Below the pieces are notes generated by a model, which did not search any database, was not told where the DNA came from, and was given only the letters and a program-made list of their open reading frames with translations. The position numbers were made by a program, and so were the translations under genes. Shown piece after piece: positions 7,604 through 57,758 of a stretch of DNA of 64,000 bases. Location: NCBI RefSeq assembly GCF_016428645.1, contig NZ_JAELXW010000006.1, positions 1 through 64,000 of the forward strand, read 5' to 3'. Origin of the DNA: Glycomyces salinus. GTDB lineage: Bacteria > Actinomycetota > Actinomycetes > Mycobacteriales > Micromonosporaceae. Position 1 is the stretch's first letter. Every line of letters starts with the position of its first letter.

Positions 7604-8020
7604 TCAGTCAGGTCCGAGCACATCGAGCTTCGGAAAATAGGTTCGGTATCGCGCCGTATCGCGAGTGAGCAGCCGGTATCCGCGCACCGCTGCGTGGGCG
7701 CCGATGTAGAAGTCCGGCAGCGGCGATCGCTTTGTTCCACCACGCCGCCTGTATTCGGCGAACGCCTTTCCTGCCAGGAACGCGGCGTCGTACGGCAGTT
7801 GCTCTCGCTCGACCTCGTGGGGAGACAGCCAGCCTTCGAGTTCTTCGAGCATGTCGAATCGGACCGAGATCTCCGCATAGACGATCGGGTTCACGCACAG
7901 GATCCCCTCGTCGTAGGCTCGCGCCACGGCACGCAGCGACCAGTCTCGCCAGGGGCCCGGGTGCCCGAACACGTCAAGCCAGACATTGCTGTCGACGAGC
8001 GTCGAGACCGGATCAGTCAC
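7604..8020 (-). CDS. PIN-domain ribonuclease toxin (VapC-like)
   Basis: This is a 138-residue PIN-domain nuclease. The acidic residues expected for metal-dependent RNA cleavage are visible: Asp in TLVDSNVWLDVF near the N-terminus, Glu in VYAEISVRF, and Asp in LPDFYIGAHA and LLTRDTARY. It overlaps the antitoxin gene by 8 bp, so the two are translationally coupled. The RNA target is unknown. Confidence 0.85.
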   Translation of the reverse strand: MTDPVSTLVDSNVWLDVFGHPGPWRDWSLRAVARAYDEGILCVNPIVYAEISVRFDMLEELEGWLSPHEVEREQLPYDAAFLAGKAFAEYRRRGGTKRSPLPDFYIGAHAAVRGYRLLTRDTARYRTYFPKLDVLGPD

Positions 8021-8252
8021 CGCGCAACATCTCCATCAGCTCGTCGGTCGTCTTGTCCATATTCGCGGTTCCCTTGCCGGCGATCCGCTTAGCGAAGCGC
8101 TCACCTCGAGTCTCGCTGCGGGGAACCGGCTTGAGATAGACTCGATCCCCCTCCTTGGCGAACTCGAACTCATCTCCCGGATGCCAGTCTTCCTCGGCCC
8201 GGATGTCCGCCGGCACAGTGACCTGGCCCTTGCCGTTCATCAGCATTCCCAT
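8013..8252 (-). CDS. AbrB/MazE-fold antitoxin
   Basis: This is a 79-residue protein with an N-terminal SpoVT/AbrB swapped-hairpin DNA-binding domain (NGKGQVTVPADIRAEEDWHPGDEFEF). Its charged C-terminal tail would wrap the toxin. I start at ATG 8252, preceded by a G-rich ribosome site; the longer frame upstream crosses the promoter. It precedes and overlaps the PIN toxin, so it is taken as its antitoxin and autorepressor. Confidence 0.82.
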   Translation of the reverse strand: MGMLMNGKGQVTVPADIRAEEDWHPGDEFEFAKEGDRVYLKPVPRSETRGERFAKRIAGKGTANMDKTTDELMEMLRGD

Positions 8253-8344
8253 TGTTGTCACCCCCCCCAAAGGATAGGTAGCACGAGGTATCTCGGAATA
8301 CATTCTAACTTCTTGGGCGTGTCGCGCGCGCAGGTCGCACACGC

Positions 8345-22372: not shown

Positions 22373-22549
22373 ATGACCGATCACTCAGCCGAGGAGGAAC
22401 TCGGCGACCAGTACCAGGCGGCGATGGAGGAGTGGTTCGCCTCTGAGGACGCGGAACTGTGGGACAGCGTCACCGGAGACGGCCTAGAAGACGAACCGGA
22501 GTGGCGTAGCGCCACCGCGCAGCCGCCACCCTCGGTCACGGATTCTTGA
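22373..22549 (+). CDS. Small acidic protein, possible antitoxin-like
   Basis: This is a 58-residue acidic frame rich in Glu, Asp and Trp (for example ASEDAELWDSVTGDGLEDE). It overlaps the end of the convergent RelE-type gene by 14 bp. Its composition resembles short tails of actinobacterial antitoxins, but I cannot place it in a family. An ATG and the open frame are the only direct evidence. Confidence 0.4.
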   Translation: MTDHSAEEELGDQYQAAMEEWFASEDAELWDSVTGDGLEDEPEWRSATAQPPPSVTDS

Positions 22550-22832
22550 AGATGTCGTGGGTTCCGATCCGACGCCACATGACGTGCGGTTCGCCCTCGA
22601 TCTGCTCTTCGCCGTACTGCCATGTGGCGCGACCATCCGAGTCCCATGTCAGCTCATAGACTCCGTCGCACCCCTGCATCTTTTTGACTCTCAGGCCCGC
22701 CCTCAATGGTCGATTCGCCTTGAGATCCTCCACGAATTGAGCTACTGCTCTCTGGAACCGGGCGCGCTGCCCTGCGTCGAGTTTCCCGTAATCCTTGTTG
22801 AACTTCGGAAACTCCTCAAACGTCGGACTCAC
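22536..22832 (-). CDS. RelE/ParE-superfamily toxin
   Basis: This is a 98-residue basic protein of the small RelE fold. It has N-terminal helices (FNKDYGKLDAGQRARFQRAVAQFVEDL) then strands with GLRVKKMQGCDGVYELTWDSDGRATWQY and a C-terminal VMWRRIGTHDIFK. RelE toxins usually cut mRNA in the ribosomal A site. The start GTG overlaps the antitoxin stop (GTGA), which implies coupling. Confidence 0.82.
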   Translation of the reverse strand: MSPTFEEFPKFNKDYGKLDAGQRARFQRAVAQFVEDLKANRPLRAGLRVKKMQGCDGVYELTWDSDGRATWQYGEEQIEGEPHVMWRRIGTHDIFKNP

Positions 22833-23149
22833 GGAAGCGGGTTCTCCCGCTCTAGGGTCTCGAACATCTCTTCAGCGCTGTGGAACACCCTGCCCTCACC
22901 GGCGGCGATCTGCTCATCGGCTTCACGCTCACCGGCCTGCCACTCCGGCGTCCAGTACCAGCGCTGGTCAGCCGGAATCACGACGAGCCCCTCCAGCCTG
23001 GCGTCACCATAGTCATCGACAGTGAGGCGGAGGCGGTCCCCTTCCTTCACATGCAGCGCATCTTGTATCTCCCGGGGAATGGTCACTTGACCCTTCGAGC
23101 GGATCTTGAGCTCTGCCTCGGCGATCACCCTCGGCTCCTTCTCGTTCAT
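22829..23149 (-). CDS. AbrB-family antitoxin of the RelE-type toxin
   Basis: This is a 106-residue protein. The AbrB/SpoVT domain (KIRSKGQVTIPREIQDALHVKEGDRLRL split over residues 15-42) is followed by an acidic C-terminal toxin-binding tail. An AbrB-type antitoxin with a RelE-type toxin is a less common pairing than RHH or HTH with RelE. An inverted repeat lies just upstream. Confidence 0.82.
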   Translation of the reverse strand: MNEKEPRVIAEAELKIRSKGQVTIPREIQDALHVKEGDRLRLTVDDYGDARLEGLVVIPADQRWYWTPEWQAGEREADEQIAAGEGRVFHSAEEMFETLERENPLP

Positions 23150-40187: not shown

Positions 40188-40219
40188 AGACCTGAGGAAA
40201 CAGGAGAAAATAAGGGAAG

Positions 40220-40253
40220 CGGGCCGGTCGATCCACTCCGATCGACCGGCCCG
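40220..40253. terminator. Bidirectional terminator
   Basis: CGGGCCGGTCGAT and ATCGACCGGCCCG flank 8 nt between convergent operons. On the minus strand it is followed by TTATTTTC, so it should stop the lanthipeptide operon well, and it may also stop the ABC operon. Confidence 0.85.
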
Positions 40254-40277
40254 GATCCGTACCGGGTGATCCGCGGT

Positions 40278-41531
40278 CTACACCCGCGCCGAACGATCGG
40301 TCTCCACCGCGGGCTCGGGTTCGGCGGTGCGCGCGAAGCGCCACAGCAGCGGCACCGCACAGCACGCGACACCGGCGACGATCCACAGTGCCGAACGCAC
40401 CGGCATCAGCGTGCCGAGCCACCCTCCGGCCAGCGCACCGAGTACGGTGGCCGCCGCGGTCACCAGCTGGACCGAGACGATCAGGCGCCCGAGGCTCCGT
40501 TCCGGCACGGCCTTCGTGACGAACGCCGAGAGGGCGATGTTGTTCATCGATCCCAGCGTCGCGGGCCCGGCGATCGACGCGGCGACCAGCGCCACCGACC
40601 AGACCTCCAGGCCCGTGGCCAAGGGCAGCAGCAGGAACGGGACCGCCGAGAACGCACCGGTCCAGAAGATCAAGCGCTCGGACCGCCAGCGTCCGCTGAA
40701 GCGGTCGACCAGGACGGTCCCGGCCAGGGCCGCCGCGCTCGCCCCGGCGAACAGCCAGCTGTACCACCGGGCGGGCAGCCCGAGGCCGTCCAGGACGAAC
40801 ACCGCCGTCATCGACTTCCACGCTCCTGAGGCCAACGCGCTGATCGCCACGAACGCGACCAGTCCGCCGAGCAGCGGCACCGTTCGCATCAGGCGGAACC
40901 CTCCGAAGGCCGAACCGCGCGTCCGCGGCCCCGCCGGAGGGCGTTCGACCTCCGCACCGCCCCGGACCCGGCCGACCAGGCCGAGACTCAGGGCACTGAC
41001 CAGACTGAGGACCCCGGCGACGGCGAACACCACGAACCCGCCGGCCACCGCCAGGTGACCGGCGGCCGACTGCGCCGCCAGTCGCGCGGACTGCTCTCCA
41101 CCCTGGAGGCGGGCCCGCCCCTTCATGAGGCGGTCGGCGGGCACCAGGCTCTTGAGGTGGACGAAGTAGAGCGTGCTCGTCGCCAATCCGACCGTGGTGG
41201 TCGCCAGGCATACCAGCAGCAGCGTGACCAGGTGGAGCCGGTCGGCGAGGATCGAGACCGTCGCTGCGAGGCCGATCCCGGCCAGAATCAGCTCCCCGGC
41301 CAGGAGCACCCGGCGCGGCCGCCGCACGCGGTCGGTCATCGCGGCGATCGGAAGGCCGAAGAGCATCATCGGCGCCGTCCCCGCGACCGTCAGGAGGCCG
41401 ACCTGGAAGGAATCGGCCCCCAACCGGTCGACCGCGAGGATCGACAGGGCCGAGGAGACGACCGTACCGCCGAGCACGGCGGCGCACTGCCCCCAGAAGT
41501 AGACCCGAAAGGCCGGCCCGAACGGCTTCAC
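40278..41531 (-). CDS. MFS transporter of the lanthipeptide operon
   Basis: This is a 417-residue major facilitator with about 12 membrane helices and a central loop. The loop 2-3 region DRVRRPRRVLL matches the MFS signature. I start at GTG 41531, which overlaps the permease stop (GTGA); the longer frame lies inside the permease gene. As last gene of the operon it may export the peptide or protect the producer. Confidence 0.87.
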   Translation of the reverse strand: MKPFGPAFRVYFWGQCAAVLGGTVVSSALSILAVDRLGADSFQVGLLTVAGTAPMMLFGLPIAAMTDRVRRPRRVLLAGELILAGIGLAATVSILADRLHLVTLLLVCLATTTVGLATSTLYFVHLKSLVPADRLMKGRARLQGGEQSARLAAQSAAGHLAVAGGFVVFAVAGVLSLVSALSLGLVGRVRGGAEVERPPAGPRTRGSAFGGFRLMRTVPLLGGLVAFVAISALASGAWKSMTAVFVLDGLGLPARWYSWLFAGASAAALAGTVLVDRFSGRWRSERLIFWTGAFSAVPFLLLPLATGLEVWSVALVAASIAGPATLGSMNNIALSAFVTKAVPERSLGRLIVSVQLVTAAATVLGALAGGWLGTLMPVRSALWIVAGVACCAVPLLWRFARTAEPEPAVETDRSARV

Positions 41532-43957
41532 TTCGAGGCGGCCTCCCCGGGCGGAGCCGCCGGCTCTGTCCTCCGGGCCGCCGACCTCCGCGTCGGATCG
41601 GACCACCGGGACGCCACCGAGGCGGCGGTGAAGGTCGCGACCACGAAGACCGCCAGCGATACGGCGGCAATCCAGCCGAGCTCCCCGGCCGCCCGGCCGA
41701 GGCCCGGCAGCTGCGCCGAGGCGATCATGTACTGCGGCAGCACCACCGCCGCCGCCGAGGCGACACCGAGGCACGAGACCGCGAAGCACTCGACGTAGGT
41801 GGCCGCGCGGATACCTCCGCGTCCGGCGGCGAAGCGCGCCAGCCAGGTCCGTTCGGTGTGGCGCGTCTGGTAGTGGGCGGCCAGGCCGTTGGCCCCGCCG
41901 AGGACGAGCATGATGACGATCAGCGACAGGAACACCAGCTCCGTCCCCGAGGCCGCCGCGCCTCCCGCGGTGAGCTCGTCGACTTCCATGATCGTCGTCC
42001 CCGGACGCGATTCGACCCACCCGGTCGGATCGGGTGCGTCGCCGTCCAGAAAGACCGCGTCGAGCTCGACGCCGCTCTGGTGCTCGGTGAGCAGGTCGAG
42101 CCCGGCTATGATGTTCGGAAAGGCCGTGTCGGAGGCGTGGATCGCCCCGACCGTCACTTCCAGCGGCGTCCCGTCTCCCAGGTACGCCCGGTAGCTGTCG
42201 CCCACGTCCACGCCCGTCTCCAGGGCCGCGGTGACCGACATCGCGATCGAAGTGCCGCCGACGTCGTCCATGGAACCGTCGGTGACGTCGACGGTGTACC
42301 GGCCCATGTCGCCGCCGAAGGCGACTCCCCCATCGAGGCGTTCGAGGTCCTCACGCGGCGTCTGGACGTACATCGTGAACTCGGTGAACCCCGCCCCGCC
42401 CAGTTCTTCCTCGTCCGCCGCGACCAGATCGCCGCGTTCGGCCGCCACCACCGCCTGCCCGGCGTGCACCGCCGACTGCCACTCCTGCGTCGACGCCGCG
42501 CCCACGATCACCGAGCCCAGCACCATGTGGAGCCCGATCACCGCGGCGACCGCGACCATGCCCGTGGCTTTCCCCAACGGCTGCATGCGGTGACGCAGGG
42601 ACCGCGCGGCGGTCCACATCACCCAACCCCGGCCCGCGAGCGCTCGCAGGAGCACGGACGACGCCGCTACCAGCCAGGGTGCGGTGACGACCACCAGCGG
42701 AACGGCCAACAGCATCGCCATGCCGACGGCCAGGAACATCATCAGAGACGTGCCTATGTTCATGAGCGCCATCGTGGCGGCCAGACCGGCTATGAGCAGC
42801 GCGGTGACGACGGCTCTCGGAAGATGTCCGACGTTCTTGAGTCCGGACCCGCTCCCTTGGACCACCGCCCGTATGTTCCTCCCGGACAATACGGTCAGAG
42901 CGATCGCGCCCGCCGCGAGGAGGAACCAGACCTGCAGCAGCGGCCCGGCGGTGGCCTCGATCGAGAACCAGGTCTCGCCCAGTGTCCGGTGGATGAGCTC
43001 GGCGACCAGCGGACCGAGGACGAACGTCAGGGGTAGGGAGAGGATCGTCCCCGCAGCCGTATAGGTCAGCAGGAAGGCGCGCAGCTGGCCGCCCGCGCCA
43101 CCGAGCCGCGACAGCGCTCGAAGCTCGCTTCCGAGGTTGGAGGTCGCCAGGGAGACGCACCCGAACAGGAGGGTGGCCACGGCGAGGACGGTGAAGCCCA
43201 TCATGGTCCACAAGTCCTCGACCATGCCGTCGACGGCGGCGGTGGACACCTCGTTGTCCCAGTCGACACGCCGCTCGTCCGGAACGGTCGACAACCCCTG
43301 GTCTGCCACAACCGCCTCGAACGCGTCCCAGTCGGTGTCGTCGGAGGCGAACACGGCGATGAAATCGGCGTGGCCTTCGGCGTTTCCATCGAGGCTCAGC
43401 GCGGTCTCGGAGTCGAAATAGGCCCCGTGAGGGAGTGTCCGAGTGATGCCGGAGACGGTGAGCGCGTGCTCAGTGCCGCCGTCGACGAGCGTGACCGAAT
43501 CTCCCACCGCCGCCCCGAGATCGTCCGCGGTCGCAGACGCGAGGACGGCCTCCTCGCCGCCCTCCGGGCGCCGGCCTTCGGACAGCAGGTCCGGTGCGGG
43601 CCACCAGGTGCGGCCGTCCAGGTGCTCGACCGTGTGCGAGTCCGACCGCAGTTGCGTGATCCTGAAGACCGACGCGGGCACGATGGTCGCTCCGGCAGAG
43701 GTCAGTCCACCGGCCGACTCCATGCTGGTCGGCGCCGTGTCCGCCCAGGTGCGCCTCGACGACTCGGGTACCCGCTGGTCGGCGGTGACCACGCGATCGG
43801 GTTGGTCCGTGTAGCTCGATTCAGGGTGCGCCAGCTGCGCGGACTGGATCACGACGTTGATCCCGCCGAGCAGCGCCGCGGCCGAGGCGATGGCGACGAC
43901 CAGCATGCCCAGGTTGAGGATGCGGTACCGGAATGTCCTTATGGCGGTTCGGATCAT
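41528..43957 (-). CDS. FtsX/MacB-like ABC permease
   Basis: This is an 809-residue permease. An N-terminal helix (LGMLVVAIASAAALLGGINV) precedes a large extracytoplasmic domain to about residue 245. Membrane helices follow near 255-275, 305-375 and 395-480, then a second extracytoplasmic domain and three C-terminal helices. This is the double-FtsX pattern seen in antimicrobial-peptide ABC systems. It begins 9 bp after the ATPase stop, and the two form one transporter. Export of, or immunity to, the lanthipeptide is the likely role. Confidence 0.88.
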   Translation of the reverse strand: MIRTAIRTFRYRILNLGMLVVAIASAAALLGGINVVIQSAQLAHPESSYTDQPDRVVTADQRVPESSRRTWADTAPTSMESAGGLTSAGATIVPASVFRITQLRSDSHTVEHLDGRTWWPAPDLLSEGRRPEGGEEAVLASATADDLGAAVGDSVTLVDGGTEHALTVSGITRTLPHGAYFDSETALSLDGNAEGHADFIAVFASDDTDWDAFEAVVADQGLSTVPDERRVDWDNEVSTAAVDGMVEDLWTMMGFTVLAVATLLFGCVSLATSNLGSELRALSRLGGAGGQLRAFLLTYTAAGTILSLPLTFVLGPLVAELIHRTLGETWFSIEATAGPLLQVWFLLAAGAIALTVLSGRNIRAVVQGSGSGLKNVGHLPRAVVTALLIAGLAATMALMNIGTSLMMFLAVGMAMLLAVPLVVVTAPWLVAASSVLLRALAGRGWVMWTAARSLRHRMQPLGKATGMVAVAAVIGLHMVLGSVIVGAASTQEWQSAVHAGQAVVAAERGDLVAADEEELGGAGFTEFTMYVQTPREDLERLDGGVAFGGDMGRYTVDVTDGSMDDVGGTSIAMSVTAALETGVDVGDSYRAYLGDGTPLEVTVGAIHASDTAFPNIIAGLDLLTEHQSGVELDAVFLDGDAPDPTGWVESRPGTTIMEVDELTAGGAAASGTELVFLSLIVIMLVLGGANGLAAHYQTRHTERTWLARFAAGRGGIRAATYVECFAVSCLGVASAAAVVLPQYMIASAQLPGLGRAAGELGWIAAVSLAVFVVATFTAASVASRWSDPTRRSAARRTEPAAPPGEAASK

Positions 43958-43966
43958 GGTGAGGCT

Positions 43967-44698
43967 TCAGTCCGCCGCGGCGAGCAGGTCGTCGAGCAGG
44001 TCGCCGGGGTCGGCTCCCTCGACCTCCCTGTCGATGCGCCCTTTGGACAGGACGAGCACCCGGTCGGCTCGGGATGCGACCAGAGGGTCGTGCGTGATCA
44101 TCAGGATGGTGTTCCCGTATTCTCCGGCCAAGTCGCGCAGGAGGCTGGTGATCTCCCTGGCCGAGGCGGGATCGAGAGCACCGGTCGGTTCGTCGGCGAC
44201 CACGACCGCCGGTTTGAGTGAGAGCGCTCGGACGATGGCGACGCGCTGCTGCTGTCCGCCGGAGAGCTGATCGATGCGACGGCCGAGCAGGTCGTCGATG
44301 CCGGTGCGTTCGGCGAGTCGTCGCACCCAGTCCCGGTCGAGTGCCGTTTTGGCGATCCGGGACGGCAGTTCGATGTTCTCGCCGACTGTGAGCGCCTCCA
44401 TCAGGGCGTAGTCCTGGTAGACGAATCCGACACGGCTGCGGCGGAACACGGCCAGCTGGCGGTCGTTGAGGGCGCCGAGGTCGGTTCCGTCCAGAAAGAC
44501 TCCGCCGCTGCTGGGCCGGTCGACCCCGACCGCGCAGTTCACCAGGGTCGTCTTCCCCGAACCCGATGGTCCCATGAGGGCGGTGAACGTCCCCGGAGCG
44601 AGATCGAACGAAACGCCCCACAGCGCATGCACCCATCCGCCCCGCGAGGCGAAACTCCGACTGACCTCCCGCATGGCGAGTTTCGATGTCCTGCTCAC
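43967..44698 (-). CDS. ABC ATPase of the lanthipeptide operon
   Basis: This 243-residue MacB/LolD-type ATPase has Walker A GPSGSGKTT, Q-loop VYQDYALM, signature LSGGQQQR, Walker B VVVADEPTGALD and H-loop MITHDP. I start at GTG 44698, 6 bp from AGGAG; the longer frame lies in the repeat downstream of the precursor. It pairs with the FtsX-like permease. Confidence 0.93.
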   Translation of the reverse strand: MSRTSKLAMREVSRSFASRGGWVHALWGVSFDLAPGTFTALMGPSGSGKTTLVNCAVGVDRPSSGGVFLDGTDLGALNDRQLAVFRRSRVGFVYQDYALMEALTVGENIELPSRIAKTALDRDWVRRLAERTGIDDLLGRRIDQLSGGQQQRVAIVRALSLKPAVVVADEPTGALDPASAREITSLLRDLAGEYGNTILMITHDPLVASRADRVLVLSKGRIDREVEGADPGDLLDDLLAAAD

Positions 44699-44733
44699 GG
44701 AGACTCCTCTGCGTTTCGATCGGATACACTGGA

Positions 44734-44763
44734 TGTCCGACCCTCGCGTGCGAGGGCCGGACA
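44734..44763 (-). other. Hairpin after the second precursor gene (repeat copy 2)
   Basis: TGTCCG-A-CCCTCGC pairs with GCGAGGG-C-CGGACA around two bases. It lies about 90 bp after the precursor stop and before the ABC ATPase, and is duplicated at 44991-45020. It probably limits read-through or protects the precursor mRNA 3' end, which would raise precursor output over the enzymes. Confidence 0.6.
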
Positions 44764-44854
44764 CGCAGATCATCGAGCCCAGCGCCGGCCGACGCAACCG
44801 CAAGTCAGGGCGGCGAAACCAAGGCCTGCGGCAGGTGCGCCGGCGCTGGCCCGA

Positions 44855-44950
44855 CTAGTTTCCGCAGTTGAAGAAGCTGAACGAGGAGACCTGCGGCGAT
44901 GCGTCGTCGGCCTTGGCGTCCAGGGTCTGCAGTTCGAGAATCTTGGCCAT
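44855..44950 (-). CDS. Class III lanthipeptide precursor 2
   Basis: This is a 31-residue precursor. The leader MAKILELQTLDAKADDASPQ carries the ILELQ motif recognised by LanKC enzymes (compare labyrinthopeptin leaders, MASILELQ). The core V-SSFSFFNC-GN has Ser-22, Ser-25 and Cys-29, an S-x2-S-x3-C labionin motif. AGGAG lies 6 bp upstream of this ATG; another ATG directly before it is closer to the ribosome site than ideal. It is the second of two tandem copies. Confidence 0.88.
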   Translation of the reverse strand: MAKILELQTLDAKADDASPQVSSFSFFNCGN

Positions 44951-44990
44951 CATCGGCTCCTATCTGGTAATCGTGGTTGGCGGTTGCCGG

Positions 44991-45020
44991 TGTCCGATCC
45001 TCGTGTGCGAGGGCCGGACA
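44991..45020 (-). other. Hairpin after the first precursor gene (repeat copy 1)
   Basis: This is the same TGTCCG/CGGACA stem as at 44734-44763, with a slightly weaker inner helix. It lies between the two precursor genes, about 90 bp after the stop of the first. Confidence 0.6.
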
Positions 45021-45111
45021 CGCAGATCATCGAGTCCGGCGCCGGCCGATGCGACCGCGGGTCAGGGCGGTGAAACCAAGGCCTGCGGCGCGCACGGCGG
45101 CACTGGGTCGA

Positions 45112-45210
45112 CTAGCCGTTGTCGCAGTTGAAGAGGCTGTAGGTGGACCACTGCGGCGAAGCGCCGTCCGCCTTCGCGTCCAGGGTCTGCAGCTCGAGAA
45201 TCTTAGCCAT
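45112..45210 (-). CDS. Class III lanthipeptide precursor 1
   Basis: This 32-residue precursor has the leader MAKILELQTLDAKADGASPQ, identical to the other copy except at residue 16. The core W-STYSLFNC-DNG has Ser-22, Ser-25 and Cys-29, again S-x2-S-x3-C. Dehydration of both Ser and double Michael addition from Cys would give one labionin; a single addition would give lanthionine. The ATG overlaps the synthetase stop (TAA inside ATGGCTAAG), so translation is coupled. The core has only one ring motif and 12 residues after Gln-20. Confidence 0.9.
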   Translation of the reverse strand: MAKILELQTLDAKADGASPQWSTYSLFNCDNG

Positions 45211-47758
45211 CATCGGCTCCTTTGCGCTTTTCGATGGATCTTTCGTAGCCGGAGCGGGAGGAGTCCCGTTCCGCTCCCGCCAGTCCCATTCCCGGGAGCT
45301 GGCAAGTCTGTTGTTCCGCCAGTGCCGCCAGGTAGACGACGCCGGCGCTGCCGGTGGCGAGGTCGTGGGAGAGCCGGTGGGATTCGCGCCCGAGCAGCGC
45401 CAGCCGGTCTTCGGTGCCGGTCGGGCACGCGAACGGTGCGAGCTGGTCGAGATCGATGCCGGGATCATCGGCCAGACCGAGCCGGTGCGCCTGAAGGCTC
45501 GTGTACCACAGGCCGAGTCGGCCGCGGAACAGTCCCGCTTCGACGGTGTGGTCGATGGTGGTGGCGGTCAGGATCCGTTCGAGAGCCTCGCGCCGTCGCC
45601 GGTCGATCCACTCGCGGCCGCTCATGAGGGCGAGCGCCAGGCCGCATGAGCCCCGTTCCAGGTACGGCAGGGCTTTGCGCCCGTCCATCATCAGTTCCTG
45701 GCGGCCGTCGCGGTGCAGGTGGGCGGCGGCGCGGTCCACGGCGATGTCGTAGCCTCGATGCCAGGTCTCGGTTCCCGTGCGGCGGTACTGGTCGGCGAAG
45801 AACATCGCCGCTCCCGACCAGCCGTGCAGCAACCCGGGAGGCAGTGCGTCTGGTTCGGCTGAGGTGAGGTGACCGAGCAGCCCTTCGGCGATGGGGCCGA
45901 CCTTCTCGGAGCGGCCCAGGTCCTCGAGCATGCGGCAGACGCCGATCGCTCCCGAATACAGGGACATGCCGATCTGCTGCCGTCCGGCCCGCTGGAGGAC
46001 CAGGTCGGCCACGTCCGCGGCGCCGGGATGCCCGGCCCTGCCCAGGATCCATGCGGCACCGGCGAGACCGTCGTAGAGCCCGAGCGCGGCTTCAGGGCGG
46101 CTGGCGAGCGCGCGTTCATGGATCCCGGCCAGATCGTCGGGGTCGAATCCGCCGGTCGCCGACGCGTCGGCGAACACGATTCCGGCGGCGCCGTAAGCCA
46201 GTCCGACCGCCGAACCGGGGCCGAATCCGCGCGGGTCGGTGCGGTCGGATCCCTTCGGTCGGCCCTGTCCGGAGTCGGTCCGCATGGAGCGGTGCATGCG
46301 GTCCACGTCGAGACCGCGCGCGGACCCGTGCGTCCGCCCGCCGGTCAACCGCGAGGCGAGTCGATTCAGGTGACCGGTATCGAGGTCGTACCATGCCGAG
46401 AGTCGTTCGAGGGCGAACGGCACTGCCTCATCGTTCAGATGAAATGCCTGGTTGAACGGCGCAAGTGCCGAAATCTCACAACAGGCCGAGGCGTAGTGGT
46501 CGAGCGTTTCAGGAGACATGGCGCGGCCCGGGTTGAACCCCGCCGTACCGATACCGGGTGGCGCTTCCGAGCCCGTACGCCGCGCCGCTTCCAGGTCGAT
46601 GATGCGCAGTTCCCCGGTCTCCTCGTCGAACAGGAGGTTCCGCGGATTGAGATCGCCCACGGCCCATCCGGTCCCGTGGATCTCCTCCAGCGCGCGTTCC
46701 AGAGCTTCGAACAGGGGGACCAGGCCGCGGCGGAACTCCTCACGGTCCCCGGCACCGGTACCCGGTCGGATCAGCGGGCTTTCGGCCGCCATTTCACTCA
46801 GCGGCTTGCCGTGGCAGTACTCCATCGCCAGGAAGTGGTGCTCCCATTCCGTGAAGATGCCCAGCGGAGCCGGGGTCCAGCCCAGGTCTTCGAGGTCTCG
46901 CAGCACCGCGTGCTCGTGGTGGAGCCGATCGACCGCGTCCCGGCCCTCGGCGTCGACACCGCACAGCGGGCGAGCCTCCTTCAGGACGACCTCCGAGCCG
47001 TCCGGTGCGAGCGCCAGATAGACGCCGCCGGCGTTCGAGAAGTGCATCGCCTCTTTGACGACGTAGTCTCCGACTGTCGGCTCGGACGGGTCCTCCTGCT
47101 GCTCGGCGGGTCGGAAGCCGGTGCCTGAGGCGATCCAGTCGGAGAGCTCGGCCCAGTCCGGAAGCGTGAACGCCGGTTCGCGCCGGTCGGGCACGAGGTG
47201 CCCGTCGGGGTGGCGTATCGCCGGGCGGCGTCCCGTCGCGCTCTCGATCCACATCGGTTTGAATGCGCCGTACCGGAGGAACACCGGGCTCTCCCCCCAG
47301 CGCAGGTCCGAGAGGATGAACGGGGACGGCCGGTCGCCGAGCAGGCCGTGGAGGGCCTGGACGAGCGTGCGGCAGTGTTCCTCGTCCGTCGGGTATGCGG
47401 TGACGAGCTTTCCGGCCGAGACGCGGTTGGCGCCCTTGGCGTTGGAGAGCAAGTGCAACCGAGGGTGGCTGAGGAACTTCAGACTGGCGCCCTCGCGCTC
47501 GCAGACGTCCCAGGCCCGCTCCACGGTCGCCTCGTACTCGTCGGTGACGGCGGAGAGGTGGATTTTCCAGCCCTGCTCGGGGAGCTTCTGGTCGATGAGG
47601 CGCAGTTCGCACCAGACATCGTTGTTGGCACGCTCCCAACCTGTCGGGAGCGCACGGCGCACTATGGGGTGAGCGTCATCGCGATCCGCCATTTCCTCGG
47701 CGGGCGTGTACCAGACGCGGTCGCCGAACAACCATTGGAGCGCGATGCCGCTTTCCAT
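45203..47758 (-). CDS. Class III lanthipeptide synthetase LanKC
   Basis: This 851-residue enzyme modifies the adjacent precursors. Residues 1-230 form the lyase domain (GWKIHLS 63-69, GKLVTAYP 116-123, LSDLRWG 149-155). Residues about 231-500 are a protein kinase with Lys-260 in VVLKEARP, GDLNPRN (Asp-369, Asn-374) and IIDLE (Asp-388). Residues about 515-851 are LanC-like; where zinc-dependent cyclases have CHG this reads FRG (744-746), as expected for class III. ATG 47758 follows GGAGGA. It heads the operon, with the first precursor overlapping its end. Confidence 0.94.
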   Translation of the reverse strand: MESGIALQWLFGDRVWYTPAEEMADRDDAHPIVRRALPTGWERANNDVWCELRLIDQKLPEQGWKIHLSAVTDEYEATVERAWDVCEREGASLKFLSHPRLHLLSNAKGANRVSAGKLVTAYPTDEEHCRTLVQALHGLLGDRPSPFILSDLRWGESPVFLRYGAFKPMWIESATGRRPAIRHPDGHLVPDRREPAFTLPDWAELSDWIASGTGFRPAEQQEDPSEPTVGDYVVKEAMHFSNAGGVYLALAPDGSEVVLKEARPLCGVDAEGRDAVDRLHHEHAVLRDLEDLGWTPAPLGIFTEWEHHFLAMEYCHGKPLSEMAAESPLIRPGTGAGDREEFRRGLVPLFEALERALEEIHGTGWAVGDLNPRNLLFDEETGELRIIDLEAARRTGSEAPPGIGTAGFNPGRAMSPETLDHYASACCEISALAPFNQAFHLNDEAVPFALERLSAWYDLDTGHLNRLASRLTGGRTHGSARGLDVDRMHRSMRTDSGQGRPKGSDRTDPRGFGPGSAVGLAYGAAGIVFADASATGGFDPDDLAGIHERALASRPEAALGLYDGLAGAAWILGRAGHPGAADVADLVLQRAGRQQIGMSLYSGAIGVCRMLEDLGRSEKVGPIAEGLLGHLTSAEPDALPPGLLHGWSGAAMFFADQYRRTGTETWHRGYDIAVDRAAAHLHRDGRQELMMDGRKALPYLERGSCGLALALMSGREWIDRRRREALERILTATTIDHTVEAGLFRGRLGLWYTSLQAHRLGLADDPGIDLDQLAPFACPTGTEDRLALLGRESHRLSHDLATGSAGVVYLAALAEQQTCQLPGMGLAGAERDSSRSGYERSIEKRKGADDG

Positions 47759-48052
47759 TCGTGGATCCTCCGGAGGGGTCGGTCGTGGTGACGGTCACTA
47801 CTTTCACAGGCCGACGCATCTTGACTGCACTTCGCGTGCACCTCGTGCGCCCCTCGTCACGGATTATCATGAGAAGGTGGAGGTCACGGCAGATATCCTG
47901 TTTTCCCGATCAACCTGTGCTACGTTGCGCAGGCGGGGAACAATCGTGGTGACGCGAACGCTGATCTGATGTGCCGCAACACGCTCAGGTCGAATGACGT
48001 ACCGGCAAGCCACTTCGCGGCGCGAAACACTACCCCCACGAGGACCCGTTCG
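47759..48052. promoter_or_regulatory. Divergent promoter region of the lanthipeptide cluster
   Basis: This 294 bp interval separates lanKC from the SARP gene. It holds four heptamers in exact 11 bp register (47819-47858), a perfect palindrome GTGACGGTCAC at 47788-47798, and a possible plus-strand -10 TATCAT at 47865-47870. No other gene is seen. Confidence 0.6.
47819..47858 (-). promoter_or_regulatory. SARP-type direct-repeat binding site
   Basis: Read on the minus strand, heptamers GACGAGG, CACGAGG, CGCGAAG and GTCAAGA follow each other every 11 bp (4 bp spacers). SARP regulators such as ActII-ORF4 bind TCGAG-like heptamers with this spacing near promoters. The CGAGG cores agree. The orientation suits activation of lanKC, though the plus-strand SARP gene could also be a target. 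Confidence 0.65.
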
Positions 48053-48874
48053 ATGTCAGTTGAGTACCCCGAGATTCGCCTGGCCGCACCGGTCGCGATC
48101 ATCGTCCCGTCCGGTGCACTGCCCGTGAAATCGGTCACCGCCAGGGGGCTGCTCGCCCGTCTGGCGCAGGCGCCCGGCCAGCTGGTGGCCTACCACCAGC
48201 TCACCGAATCGATATGGGAGGAACGCGAACCGCGCTCGGCCAAGTCCAATCTCAGGACCGCGGCGGCTTCACTGCGCCGCGCTCTGGGTTCGGGCGAGCG
48301 CGACCCGGCGGAGGTCCTGCGGACCTACCGCGCGAGTCCGGGCCAGGCGAACGGCGCCATGTCGCTCGACCTGCCCGAGAGCGCCATCGACCTCTTTCAG
48401 GTCACACGCAAGGTCGACGCCGCGTTCGAACACATCCGCGCCGACCGCCTCTCGGAGTGCCGCCGACTCTGCCGCGAACTGGAGTCGGTCGATCTGACCG
48501 GATTCGGGACCGATCTTCCGGCCACCAGATGGTTCGGCGTCCTGGCCCAGCGGGTCCAGCGGCTGTGGTTGCGGATGAACTTGGTGCGCTGTAAGACCGC
48601 GTTGCTGGACGGTGACTTCGTGGTAGCCGAACGGATCGCGGTCACGCTCCATCGGAGCCAGGCGGCGATCGATCCCGGCGAAGCGCTGCTCACCGTCACG
48701 CAATTCTTCCTCGGCGACACCGCGCAGTCGCTCGAACATCTCACCGCGCTGCGCGATCGGCACAGCGCACTCGGACTCGACTGGCCCCCGCACTTCGACC
48801 GACTGCAACATGCGATCCTCAACCACAGCCACGCGGAAGTCAGAGAGATCGCACGCGTCGATCTGGTCCTCTGA
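48053..48874 (+). CDS. SARP/AfsR-type pathway regulator
   Basis: This is a 273-residue regulator. The N-terminal winged helix (LTESIWEEREPRSAKSNLRTAAASLRRAL in parts, about residues 45-90) and a following bacterial transcription-activator-like helical region match the SARP family. ATG 48053 follows GAGGA by 9 bp. It is divergent from the lanthipeptide operon across SARP-like repeats, so it is probably the pathway activator. Confidence 0.82.
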   Translation: MSVEYPEIRLAAPVAIIVPSGALPVKSVTARGLLARLAQAPGQLVAYHQLTESIWEEREPRSAKSNLRTAAASLRRALGSGERDPAEVLRTYRASPGQANGAMSLDLPESAIDLFQVTRKVDAAFEHIRADRLSECRRLCRELESVDLTGFGTDLPATRWFGVLAQRVQRLWLRMNLVRCKTALLDGDFVVAERIAVTLHRSQAAIDPGEALLTVTQFFLGDTAQSLEHLTALRDRHSALGLDWPPHFDRLQHAILNHSHAEVREIARVDLVL

Positions 48875-48941
48875 GGGCCGAGAGCCGCATTCCAGGGTTC
48901 GTTGTCGGACCCGCGTGGTTGCCTGTGGTTCTATGGTGACC

Positions 48942-55245: not shown

Positions 55246-55725
55246 ATGAACGACCGCACCAAGCTTCGTCCCGCCCGCCTGACCGCCCTGGCCGGAGGCG
55301 CCTTCGCCCTGACGATGGCACTCGCCGCCTGCGGCGGAAGCAACGACACTCCCGACGGAGCAGTCGAGAACTTCTACGACAACGGAGCCCAGGACATCGT
55401 GAACGCGATGGTCGACGGCGACTTCGAAGGGGCCGCGGACACCGCCGAGGACTACTTCTGCGCCGGCGACGTTGACGGCATCCGCGAAGTCGGCGACCAG
55501 CTCGCCGAGCTGCCGGAGGACATGTCCGACGAGGCCCTGCAAGAGTTGGCCTCGGATGTCGAGATCCCCGACGGCTTCGAGTACGAGATCGGCGACGTCA
55601 CCGAGGACGGCGACACCGCGACCGTCAATGTCGAGGTCACCGCCGACGGCGAGACCACCGAGAACTCGCACGAGCTGACGAAGGAAGACGACGAGTGGAA
55701 GATCTGCGGCGAGTTCGCGATGTAG
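55246..55725 (+). CDS. Tandem lipoprotein, copy 1
   Basis: This 159-residue lipoprotein has the signal LRPARLTALAGG...LAAC, then an acidic mature domain with one Cys in YFCAGD and one in KICGEF. It ends with strands YEIGDVTEDGDTATVNVEVT and KEDDEWKICG, a pattern like DUF4878/NTF2-like secreted domains. ATG follows ATAGGAACTC. It is the first of three tandem paralogs. Confidence 0.85.
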   Translation: MNDRTKLRPARLTALAGGAFALTMALAACGGSNDTPDGAVENFYDNGAQDIVNAMVDGDFEGAADTAEDYFCAGDVDGIREVGDQLAELPEDMSDEALQELASDVEIPDGFEYEIGDVTEDGDTATVNVEVTADGETTENSHELTKEDDEWKICGEFAM

Positions 55726-55734
55726 TTCGCCCGT

Positions 55735-55784
55735 GAACGAGCATCGGGGCCCGGCCGCAGGCGGCCGGGCCCCGATGCTCGTTC
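55735..55784 (+). terminator. Terminator after lipoprotein copy 1
   Basis: Perfect 24 bp arms (GAACGAGCATCGGGG outward) surround a 2 nt centre, starting 10 bp after the stop. Confidence 0.8.
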
Positions 55785-55906
55785 GGTGTCCATTTCGAGG
55801 TCTTCTGGCGGTTCGCGGGAGGATGCTACGTTCATCGGGTCCCCCGACGGCGGCCCACCGGCCCGAGGGGATGGTCGAATCACCCCCTCCACACCGATAG
55901 GAACTC

Positions 55907-56380
55907 ATGATCATGGACTTCAAGCTCCGTCCGGCCCGCCTGACCGCCCTGACCGGCGGTGCCTTCGCCATGGCCTTCGCATTGGCCGCGTGCGGCGGCG
56001 GGGCCGGCTCCCCCGAGGACGCGGTCGAGGACTTCCTCGGGGGCGGCATCGAGGACTACGCCAACTCCTTCGCGGAGGGCGACTTCGACGCGGTCCTCGA
56101 GGCGGCCGAGGAGCACCTGTGCGCCGAGGATGTCGAGGGCCTGGAGGAGATGGCCGCCCAGTACGAGGAGCTCAGCCCCGAGGAGCAGGAGGCGCAGGCC
56201 GCCCAGATGGCGGAGGCCGCGGTCCCCGACGACTACTCCTACGAGATCGGCGAGGTCACCGAAGACGGCGACACCGCGACCGTCAACGTCGAACTCACCG
56301 CCGAGGGCGAGACCGTCACCGAGGGCGTCGACGTGGTCAAGGAAGACGACGAATGGAAGGTCTGCGGCTTCGGCGTCTGA
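55907..56380 (+). CDS. Tandem lipoprotein, copy 2
   Basis: This 157-residue paralog of copy 1 has FKLRPARLTALTGGAFAMAF then LAAC. The mature part keeps Cys in HLCAED and KVCGFG and the same DDYSYEIGEVTEDGDTATV strands. It is closer to copy 3 than to copy 1. The same ATAGGAACTC ribosome region precedes its ATG. Function unknown. Confidence 0.84.
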   Translation: MIMDFKLRPARLTALTGGAFAMAFALAACGGGAGSPEDAVEDFLGGGIEDYANSFAEGDFDAVLEAAEEHLCAEDVEGLEEMAAQYEELSPEEQEAQAAQMAEAAVPDDYSYEIGEVTEDGDTATVNVELTAEGETVTEGVDVVKEDDEWKVCGFGV

Positions 56381-56414
56381 CCCCGAGGCCACACCTCTCC
56401 AGCAAATCGAATGC

Positions 56415-56445
56415 GGGGGCCGGGCGCCGAAAGCGCCCGGCCCCC
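56415..56445 (+). terminator. Terminator after lipoprotein copy 2
   Basis: GGGGGCCGGGCGC pairs with GCGCCCGGCCCCC around CGAAA, 35 bp after the stop. Confidence 0.78.
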
Positions 56446-56574
56446 GGTGCCGCTCGGGAGTCGTTTCGACGCCCTCCGGTGGTTGCGCGCTGATGCTAGG
56501 TTCCTCAGATCCCCCGATGGCGACGCACCAACCTGAGGGAATGCTCGAACCCCCGCACAGATAGGAACTCATTC

Positions 56575-57042
56575 GTGGACATCAAGCTCCGTCCGGCCCG
56601 CCTGACCGCCCTGGCCAGCGGCGCCTGCGCTATCGCGCTGGCACTGGCCGCCTGCAGTGACGCGAGCGATTCTCCTGAGGGAGTGGTCGAGGCATTCATC
56701 GACGACGGCATGGCCGAATACAGGAGCCACCTCATCGAGGGCGACGCCGAGGCGGCCGTCGAGGCCGCCGCCGACTACCAGTGCGCCGAGCACGTCGAGG
56801 AGCGCCGGGAGTCGGCCGAGGAGTTCGTAGCCCTCACCGGCGAGGAGCGAGAGCAGGCGGTCGAACGGCTCGAGGAGTACTCGGTCCCCGACGACTACTC
56901 CTACGAGATCGGCGAGGTCACCGAGGACGGCGACACCGCGACCGTCGAGATCGAGATCACCGCCGACGGCGAGACCAGGAACCAGACCATCGACGTGGTC
57001 AAGGAAGACGACGAATGGAAGGTCTGCGGCTTCGGTCTCTAA
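56575..57042 (+). CDS. Tandem lipoprotein, copy 3, start shifted
   Basis: This is a 155-residue paralog with IKLRPARLTALASGACAIAL and LAAC. Cys in YQCAEH and KVCGFG are kept. In copies 1 and 2 ATG directly follows AGGAACTC; here that codon is ATT, and the frame begins at GTG 56575. Its last 28 bp overlap a small secreted protein gene, and no terminator follows directly. Confidence 0.83.
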   Translation: MDIKLRPARLTALASGACAIALALAACSDASDSPEGVVEAFIDDGMAEYRSHLIEGDAEAAVEAAADYQCAEHVEERRESAEEFVALTGEEREQAVERLEEYSVPDDYSYEIGEVTEDGDTATVEIEITADGETRNQTIDVVKEDDEWKVCGFGL

Positions 57043-57371: not shown

Positions 57372-57758
57372 TCAGCCAGCAAGCAATGGAACCAGTCGTC
57401 TGCCGATCTCATCGACCGAGGTCAATTGACCGGAAGCCACCTCGATGATGAGCTGGTAGGCATCACCTTCGACCTCGTCCGGATCTCTTAGCTCGATGCC
57501 GTTGATGGACAAGAATGTCGCGGCCGCAACAAAGCCGAGGCGTTTGTTGCCATCGACAAGCGGATGATTGGACACAACTGAGTGCAGTAGAGCGGCGGCC
57601 TTCTCTACGAGAGTCTCGTACGCGTCTTCGCCGAACAATCTTGTCTGCGGGCGCGCGGCGGCCGACTCCAGCAAACCGACGTCCCGGATCTTTGCCTCCG
57701 GGCCGACAGCAACCTTGACAAGATCAATCAGCGATTCGGTTGAAAGATACCGGGTCAC
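57372..57758 (-). CDS. Doc-type Fic toxin
   Basis: This 128-residue Fic-fold protein has the motif HPLVDGNKRLGF, with the catalytic His and anion loop. Doc phosphorylates EF-Tu and stops translation. The GTG start overlaps the antitoxin stop by one base (TAGTG). Confidence 0.9.
   Translation of the reverse strand: MTRYLSTESLIDLVKVAVGPEAKIRDVGLLESAAARPQTRLFGEDAYETLVEKAAALLHSVVSNHPLVDGNKRLGFVAAATFLSINGIELRDPDEVEGDAYQLIIEVASGQLTSVDEIGRRLVPLLAG

Follow-up and report, generated by a model that had tools for sequence, protein, structure and literature searches.

The 64,000-nt window analysed here (the whole stretch of DNA under study: positions 1 to 64,000, forward strand, of Glycomyces salinus contig NZ_JAELXW010000006.1, GCF_016428645.1) contains a real and well-bounded class III lanthipeptide cluster whose two tandem precursors each carry a single S-x2-S-x3-C motif. 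The cluster is probably functional and looks like an uncharacterised variant among one-ring class III peptides that are already known or predicted. Its minus-strand genes run in the order LanKC, A2, A1, ABC ATPase, permease, MFS, with the start of A2 overlapping the LanKC stop by 11 nt. The features, numbered by window position, are as follows.

40188-48932, no strand: seven-gene insertion separating an ABC-2-like permease gene from a UvrD/PD-(D/E)XK helicase gene
40278-41531, minus: MFS exporter (MFS_1, 81.6 bits), with a 4-nt overlap with the permease stop
41528-43957, minus: permease of 809 aa, FtsX/MacB-like by layout (hydropathy; weak BLASTP match)
43967-44698, minus: ABC transporter ATPase, LolD/MacB-type (ABC_tran, 111.1 bits)
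44733-44764, minus: GC-rich hairpin with a 14-bp stem, downstream of A1 (folding against shuffles)
44855-44953, minus: precursor A1, 32 aa, MMAKILELQTLDAKADDASPQVSSFSFFNCGN, core region VSSFSFFNCGN, one S-x2-S-x3-C motif
44990-45021, minus: second copy of this hairpin, lying between the two precursor genes (folding against shuffles)
45112-45213, minus: precursor A2, 33 aa, MMAKILELQTLDAKADGASPQWSTYSLFNCDNG, core region WSTYSLFNCDNG, one S-x2-S-x3-C motif
45203-47758, minus: LanKC, class III lanthipeptide synthetase (lyase-kinase-cyclase), 851 aa (NF038151, RamC_N)
47969-48874, plus: SARP-like regulator, divergent (Trans_reg_C, 28.8 bits)

Genes and peptides lie at the coordinates given by the initial annotation, which had described a class III cluster in an operon arrangement with two tandem precursors, each with an ILELQ leader and one S-x2-S-x3-C motif; gene order, motifs and family models bear this out. 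Among the models, the synthetase passes the NCBIfam class III equivalog NF038151 (646.5 bits, cut-off 575), fails the class IV equivalog (309.9 bits, cut-off 650) and contains RamC_N at 209.5 bits. Its LanC-like domain scores 19.3 bits, below the Pfam cut-off of 23.2, which the same domain of the LanKC at locus L097 passes (40.3 bits). The best PDB sequence matches (E 9.1e-64) are LanKC entries that we take to be ThurKC. The lysine and aspartates of the kinase motifs are retained, and the DFE motif reads DLE here. Residues K65, H67, K94, K108, K117, D151, R162 and R193 correspond to the ThurKC lyase residues, as counted by hand on an alignment with chain 8sao, which we assume to be ThurKC with its numbering shifted by 3. 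Eight lyase residues are named for ThurKC in PMC10604976. Since these residues and the kinase lysine and aspartates are kept, dehydration of Ser23 and Ser26 and closure of a ring on Cys30 are to be expected.

The precursors themselves are well distinguished from chance reading frames. A strict pattern (an LxLQ leader, S-x2-S-x3-C near the C-terminus and a short ORF) matches A1 and A2 only among all ORFs of the 64-kb window, and matches no ORF in 60 second-order Markov sequences of 64 kb each. This null rules out chance ORFs, in agreement with the LanKC/A2 overlap and the silent changes in the leader. Against the lanthi_III_a model NF038154 (cut-off 22), A2 scores above the threshold at 25.8 bits and A1 falls 0.3 bit short at 21.7; scores for the two precursors lie below the cut-off with both the RamS model PF19402 (19.0 and 22.1 bits, cut-off 24.3) and the SapB_AmfS model NF033212 (17.2 and 21.8 bits, cut-off 25).

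The two precursor genes arose as copies of a single 257-260-bp unit, which extends over about 125 nt of downstream sequence with the hairpin region; the repeat comparison gave two families, each 86% identical. Codon by codon, the leaders (residues 1-21) differ by five silent changes and one replacement, and the cores (residues 22-32) by no silent change and five replacements, plus a stop shift; the contrast gives a Fisher p of 0.015 on 11 substitutions, with the leader/core split chosen after seeing them. Residues S23, S26, F28, N29 and C30 are identical in the two peptides. A frozen leader, a varied core and a fixed ring are, at the level of sequence, the pattern to be expected if one enzyme has two working substrates. 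Each core also has a third Ser/Thr (S24 or T24), so that three waters may be lost rather than the two proposed initially.

Strong folding accompanies both precursor genes: the segment after A1 (44699-44848) has a z of -4.62 and that between A2 and A1 (44954-45103) a z of -3.52, each with 0 of 200 shuffles as good. Hairpins also lie 3' of the precursors at two related loci, L097 (z -3.1, 1 of 200 shuffles) and L098 (z -6.7, 0 of 200). Rfam at the gathering threshold matched nothing in the 64-kb window, and the promoter and terminator scan returned 0 and 1 hits, no excess over shuffles.

The transporter genes were compared with those at related loci, gene neighbourhoods having been read at seven LanKC loci. 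For the ATPase, the top NCBIfam rows (MacB, L_ocin_972_ABC and LolD) all fall below their cut-offs, and the protein shares 46% identity with the L097 ATPase across 220 aa. The MFS protein is 41% identical over 391 aa to the one next to the LanKC in L098. What had been called an FtsX permease is less firmly placed. No Pfam or NCBIfam family matches it above chance, and a PDB search at E <= 1 gave no match; in favour of the name are a weak BLASTP match (E 3e-5, 21% identity) to the Pfam-confirmed FtsX permease of L097, and a hydropathy profile of one TM segment, a loop of about 208 aa, a TM block, a loop of about 174 aa and three TM segments, which resembles the FtsX/MacB layout. Because each transporter type occurs in at least one of the nearest relatives, the transporters are taken to belong to the cluster. 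The regulator, annotated initially as a SARP, is more cautiously called SARP-like. SARPs combine a Trans_reg_C DNA-binding domain with a BTAD domain; the former is present above its cut-off (28.8 bits against 26.2), BTAD is absent from the Pfam matches at E <= 0.01, and the match to BagI_FevR reaches 37.8 bits, far below the cut-off of 500.

Comparison within the genus delimits the block. On the left it is bordered by an ABC ATPase gene and by one with weak resemblance to ABC-2 permeases (17.9 bits, below the cut-off of 31.6), on the right by two UvrD/PD-(D/E)XK helicase genes. These flanking genes keep their order in all ten same-genus genomes fetched (of 21 with the second helicase). The distance from the permease-like gene to the first helicase gene is 8,745 nt here versus about 47-963 nt in the ten relatives, where it was measured between the ends of protein matches rather than annotated starts and stops. 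As these neighbours lie next to each other in every one of the ten relatives retrieved (of 21), the seven genes are best read as one inserted unit, probably strain-specific and acquired laterally. Among 22 genomes of the genus, only the window's own contains an orthologue of its LanKC. Matches to the enzyme at E <= 1e-100 occur in 5 of the 22, and the other matches are 34-36% identical to it.

The same genome encodes a second LanKC (G000:C113:72567-74993, locus L103; 35% identical), accompanied by a 48-aa precursor with three S-x2-S-x3-C motifs, a LuxR-type gene and three genes (568-600 aa) that match the ABC ATPase of the window cluster. This is the ordinary form of a class III cluster. The window cluster differs from it in having an ATPase, an FtsX-like permease and an MFS protein in place of three ABC-type genes, and a SARP-like rather than a LuxR-type regulator. 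Precursors like that of L103 occur in other members of the genus.

Relatives of the synthetase were sought in overlapping genome sets drawn from the genus (22), family (200), order (397), class (394) and phylum (396), and in further overlapping sets of 35 and 1 genomes around two relatives. A tree was built from 91 LanKCs (96 minus 5 duplicates), representing fetched, best-scoring loci only. It unites the window LanKC with L008, from genome G033 of the same family, and L062, from G691 of the same class, against the 88 others at an SH-aLRT of 100, with L008 paired with the window enzyme. When each of the three is left out in turn, the remaining pair stays together at 99-100 (SH-aLRT only; 38 of 91 rows). 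The three are mutually 35-39% identical, which is not above many other pairs, and by plain identity L080 (42%) comes closer to L062 than L008 does (39%). The window LanKC has the longest end branch of the tree (1.56), and the branch of L008 is also long. Elsewhere, a scan of genome contigs with the LanKC gave one distant locus (34%), and a plasmid search gave 73 records, all below 60% identity (29.6-33.6% among the 15 matches listed).

Both clade relatives encode a short one-motif precursor directly after the LanKC. In L062/L097 this is MMYVLALQELDEEIVVDAPFSSISYFACH, and the genes run LanKC, A, FtsX, MFS, S9 peptidase (prolyl-oligopeptidase family), ABC ATPase. In L008/L098 it is MSDVLDLQAIENEELDANDGVLASSNWSTVSCCCGDQQMN, whose three Cys leave the number of rings uncertain; the order there is LanKC, A, MFS, and nothing within 17 kb matches the window ATPase. 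We tentatively suggest that the LanKCs of the window, L062/L097 and L008/L098 form a deep, separate lineage dedicated to unlipidated lone-labionin peptides of about 10-13 residues, a reading that we hold with less than even confidence. If it is right, the bicyclic labionin ring would make up nearly the whole molecule, exported by an FtsX-type ABC transporter and/or an MFS protein, and tandem duplication with frozen leaders would yield several mini-peptides from one enzyme.

One-Cys class III cores are rare but recurrent. A precursor is recovered by pattern at 84 of the 91 different LanKC loci, with one core Cys at 3, two at 65 and three at 16. The three one-Cys loci are the window, L009 and L085; L062 is a fourth, missed by the pattern and spotted by eye, and the precursors of L079 and L089 came to light with a looser pattern. 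The invariance of S, S and C among pattern-found precursors is no evidence of conservation, since the patterns demanded the motif. Locus L085 has the one-motif precursor NSGISYFGCS, and L020, L038 and L043 share a common one-motif precursor with two adjacent Cys. Because the LanKCs of L085, L009 and L020 fall outside the window clade, one-ring precursors arose or persisted more than once. A profile of the precursors matches 11 of the 394 class genomes at E <= 0.05 and 5 at E < 1e-9; among these five, the own genome, G691 and G886 already had profile rows, and G784 and G798 (genus of G886) are new. In G655, L119:6285-6368 encodes a 27-aa one-motif precursor next to a divergent LanKC.

Some observations on these loci stand apart. 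The L119 precursor ends in S-x2-S-x2-C with a C-terminal Cys, a more lipolanthine-like form. The genus of G886 (with G784 and G798) has one-motif precursors in NSGISYFGCS and NSGLSLVGCSGD forms, with sites at about 7,083,170 and at 7,090,258-7,090,664 of L099/G886:C1; near them lie two small proteins without a Pfam match, and one ORF is acetyltransferase-like by eye.

The exact A1 and A2 peptides did not turn up elsewhere in the material searched. They are absent from the plasmid collection and from all 393 further genomes scanned with the precursor model, and peptide words of the family are absent from openly searchable paper text, where the literature on the topic yielded no recognised description; subscription papers lie mostly outside that text. 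The initial annotation had considered a single-labionin product unusual. Rarity stands (3 of 84 loci by pattern, plus L062), and the surprise is weakened by recurrence and by single-ring class III peptides that are known or predicted. Andalusicin has one labionin (PMC10604976), noursin has a single Cys that forms one labionin, with a His crosslink in addition (PMC10206099), and the lipolanthine nocaviogua A has one avionin in 8 residues, with Avi8 last (PMC10435860). Single-cysteine class III peptides are, moreover, predicted widely: a 2024 survey reports 179 predicted single-cysteine lanthipeptides from 2,785 genomes, with labionin-motif single-Cys peptides enriched next to type III synthetases (PMC11251773). 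The survey names lipolanthines as the sole characterised single-cysteine lanthipeptides; noursin (2023) is single-Cys as well.

Set against these systems, the window cluster shares with the SapB/AmfS and labyrinthopeptin type a LanKC, an LxLQ leader, the S-x2-S-x3-C motif, nearby transporters and the lack of a cluster protease, and departs from it in its precursors of 32-33 aa and in the single motif that each core carries, against two or three there. It resembles noursin (NorKC) in its one Cys and LELQ leader, noursin itself carrying one labionin; the noursin cluster has an S9 peptidase, as does the relative L097. Unlike noursin, neither A1 nor A2 has a His for a histidinobutyrine crosslink, and scores of 13.0 and 14.0 with NF050143 (cut-off 40) complete the rejection of a noursin-type product. 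Andalusicin (ThurKC) is alike in its single labionin, the ring predicted here too. Its precursor ThurA1 differs in undergoing 11 dehydrations, of which nine remain as open dehydroamino acids, and in being N-methylated (PMC10604976). The predictions of PMC11251773, single-Cys peptides with a labionin motif next to type III synthetases, are alike by description.

Taken as a whole, the block quite likely works as a class III lanthipeptide cluster in which a regulator, a LanKC, one ring, cleavage and export follow one another. For its enzymatic steps, ring type, cleavage site, export, regulation, use and activity we propose the following. The SARP-like protein would activate the operon, and the LanKC would bind the LxLQ helix of the leader. 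Ser23 and Ser26, perhaps with Ser/Thr24, would be phosphorylated by the LanKC, and elimination of the phosphate would give dehydroalanines. Addition of Cys30 would then close one ring per peptide, a labionin over S23-S26-C30 or otherwise a lanthionine. Leader removal would fall to a host protease, plausibly a prolyl oligopeptidase that cuts after Pro20, and subsequent trimming would leave final products of about 10-13 residues. For a cut behind Pro20 the calculated [M+H]+ of A1 is 1300.54 with two waters lost or 1282.53 with three, and that of A2 1498.61 or 1480.60. The prolyl oligopeptidase is proposed because L097 encodes an S9 peptidase, because a Pro shortly precedes the first ring Ser in the A1, A2 and L097 precursors, and because FlaP cuts a modified precursor after Pro (review PMC10885120). 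It is weakened by the L008 and L085 precursors, which have no Pro before the ring. There is no protease gene within the seven-gene block; elsewhere in the genome, outside the window, the S9_N (PF02897) and M1 (PF01433) peptidase models find one match each. Export of the products and/or protection of the cell would be the task of the MFS protein and of the ABC ATPase together with the permease, and the hairpins behind each precursor gene may hold precursor mRNA above transporter mRNA.

The nature of the ring and the use of the product allow other readings. The ring made by the same cluster could be a plain lanthionine between Ser23 or Ser26 and Cys30, the remaining Ser/Thr staying as dehydroamino acids; depending on the class III peptide, the Sx2Sx3C motif does form either lanthionine or labionin (PMC7268733). 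The enzyme leaves some room for this reading: among the ThurKC residues whose loss abolished the labionin fragment, F770 is kept as F744, and D771, the proposed general base, is replaced by Arg745; the residue preceding GR[AST]G varies widely across LanKCs. Both motif Ser are nevertheless kept in A1, A2 and the two clade relatives, the precursors of the relatives having been picked for the motif, and we regard labionin as more likely and the lanthionine as rather unlikely. Far less plausible, to the point of deserving hardly any weight, is a lipolanthine-type product with one avionin ring and a fatty acyl tail. Avionin forms with a C-terminal Cys, and lipolanthine clusters combine such a Cys with a LanD-type decarboxylase and acyl genes. 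The window peptides share with lipolanthines one predicted ring from a Ser-Ser-Cys motif and a short core, and lipolanthines such as the 8-residue nocaviogua A are established one-ring class III products (PMC10435860); here GN and DNG follow the Cys, and the seven genes include no decarboxylase, acyltransferase or PKS, so that this reading was rejected.

Two further alternatives concern not the ring but the purpose of the cluster. The genes could be intact and out of use, in a silent or decaying cluster, as the single orthologue among the 22 genus genomes and the long LanKC end branch might indicate. Against decay, no reading frame is interrupted, lyase and ring residues are retained and the leader changes are largely silent, which makes disuse improbable. 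More plausible is that the product is a signalling or morphogenetic, SapB-like peptide rather than an antibiotic. Several class III peptides are morphogens (PMC13380574), and the weak, sub-threshold match to the RamS model points the same way. That role may, however, already be filled by the ordinary cluster of the same genome, L103, a LanKC match at E <= 1e-60 being present in 10 of 21 relatives. A morphogen is accordingly possible, with the balance somewhat against it.

The present analysis adds a lineage of LanKCs that act beside one-ring precursors, with transporter types that recur and a protease that is optional, and in the window the cluster is a clean insertion. Its pair of natural substrates, with a common leader and differences only around the ring, offers a simple test of labionin versus lanthionine formation from a lone motif, and the cluster equally suits asking what a bare labionin peptide does. 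If active, its products would be unusually small and easily varied.

Elsewhere in the window, a PIN-domain protein gene beside a MazE-type antitoxin-like gene (7604-8342, minus strand) forms a probable toxin-antitoxin pair by Pfam, and a MazE-type antitoxin-like gene with a 98-aa protein lacking a Pfam match (22536-23149, minus) a possible one. Three tandem lipoprotein-like genes with a DUF4878 domain lie at 55246-57042 (plus), and a Fic/DOC family protein (PF02661), possibly a Doc-type toxin, is encoded at 57372-57758 (minus).
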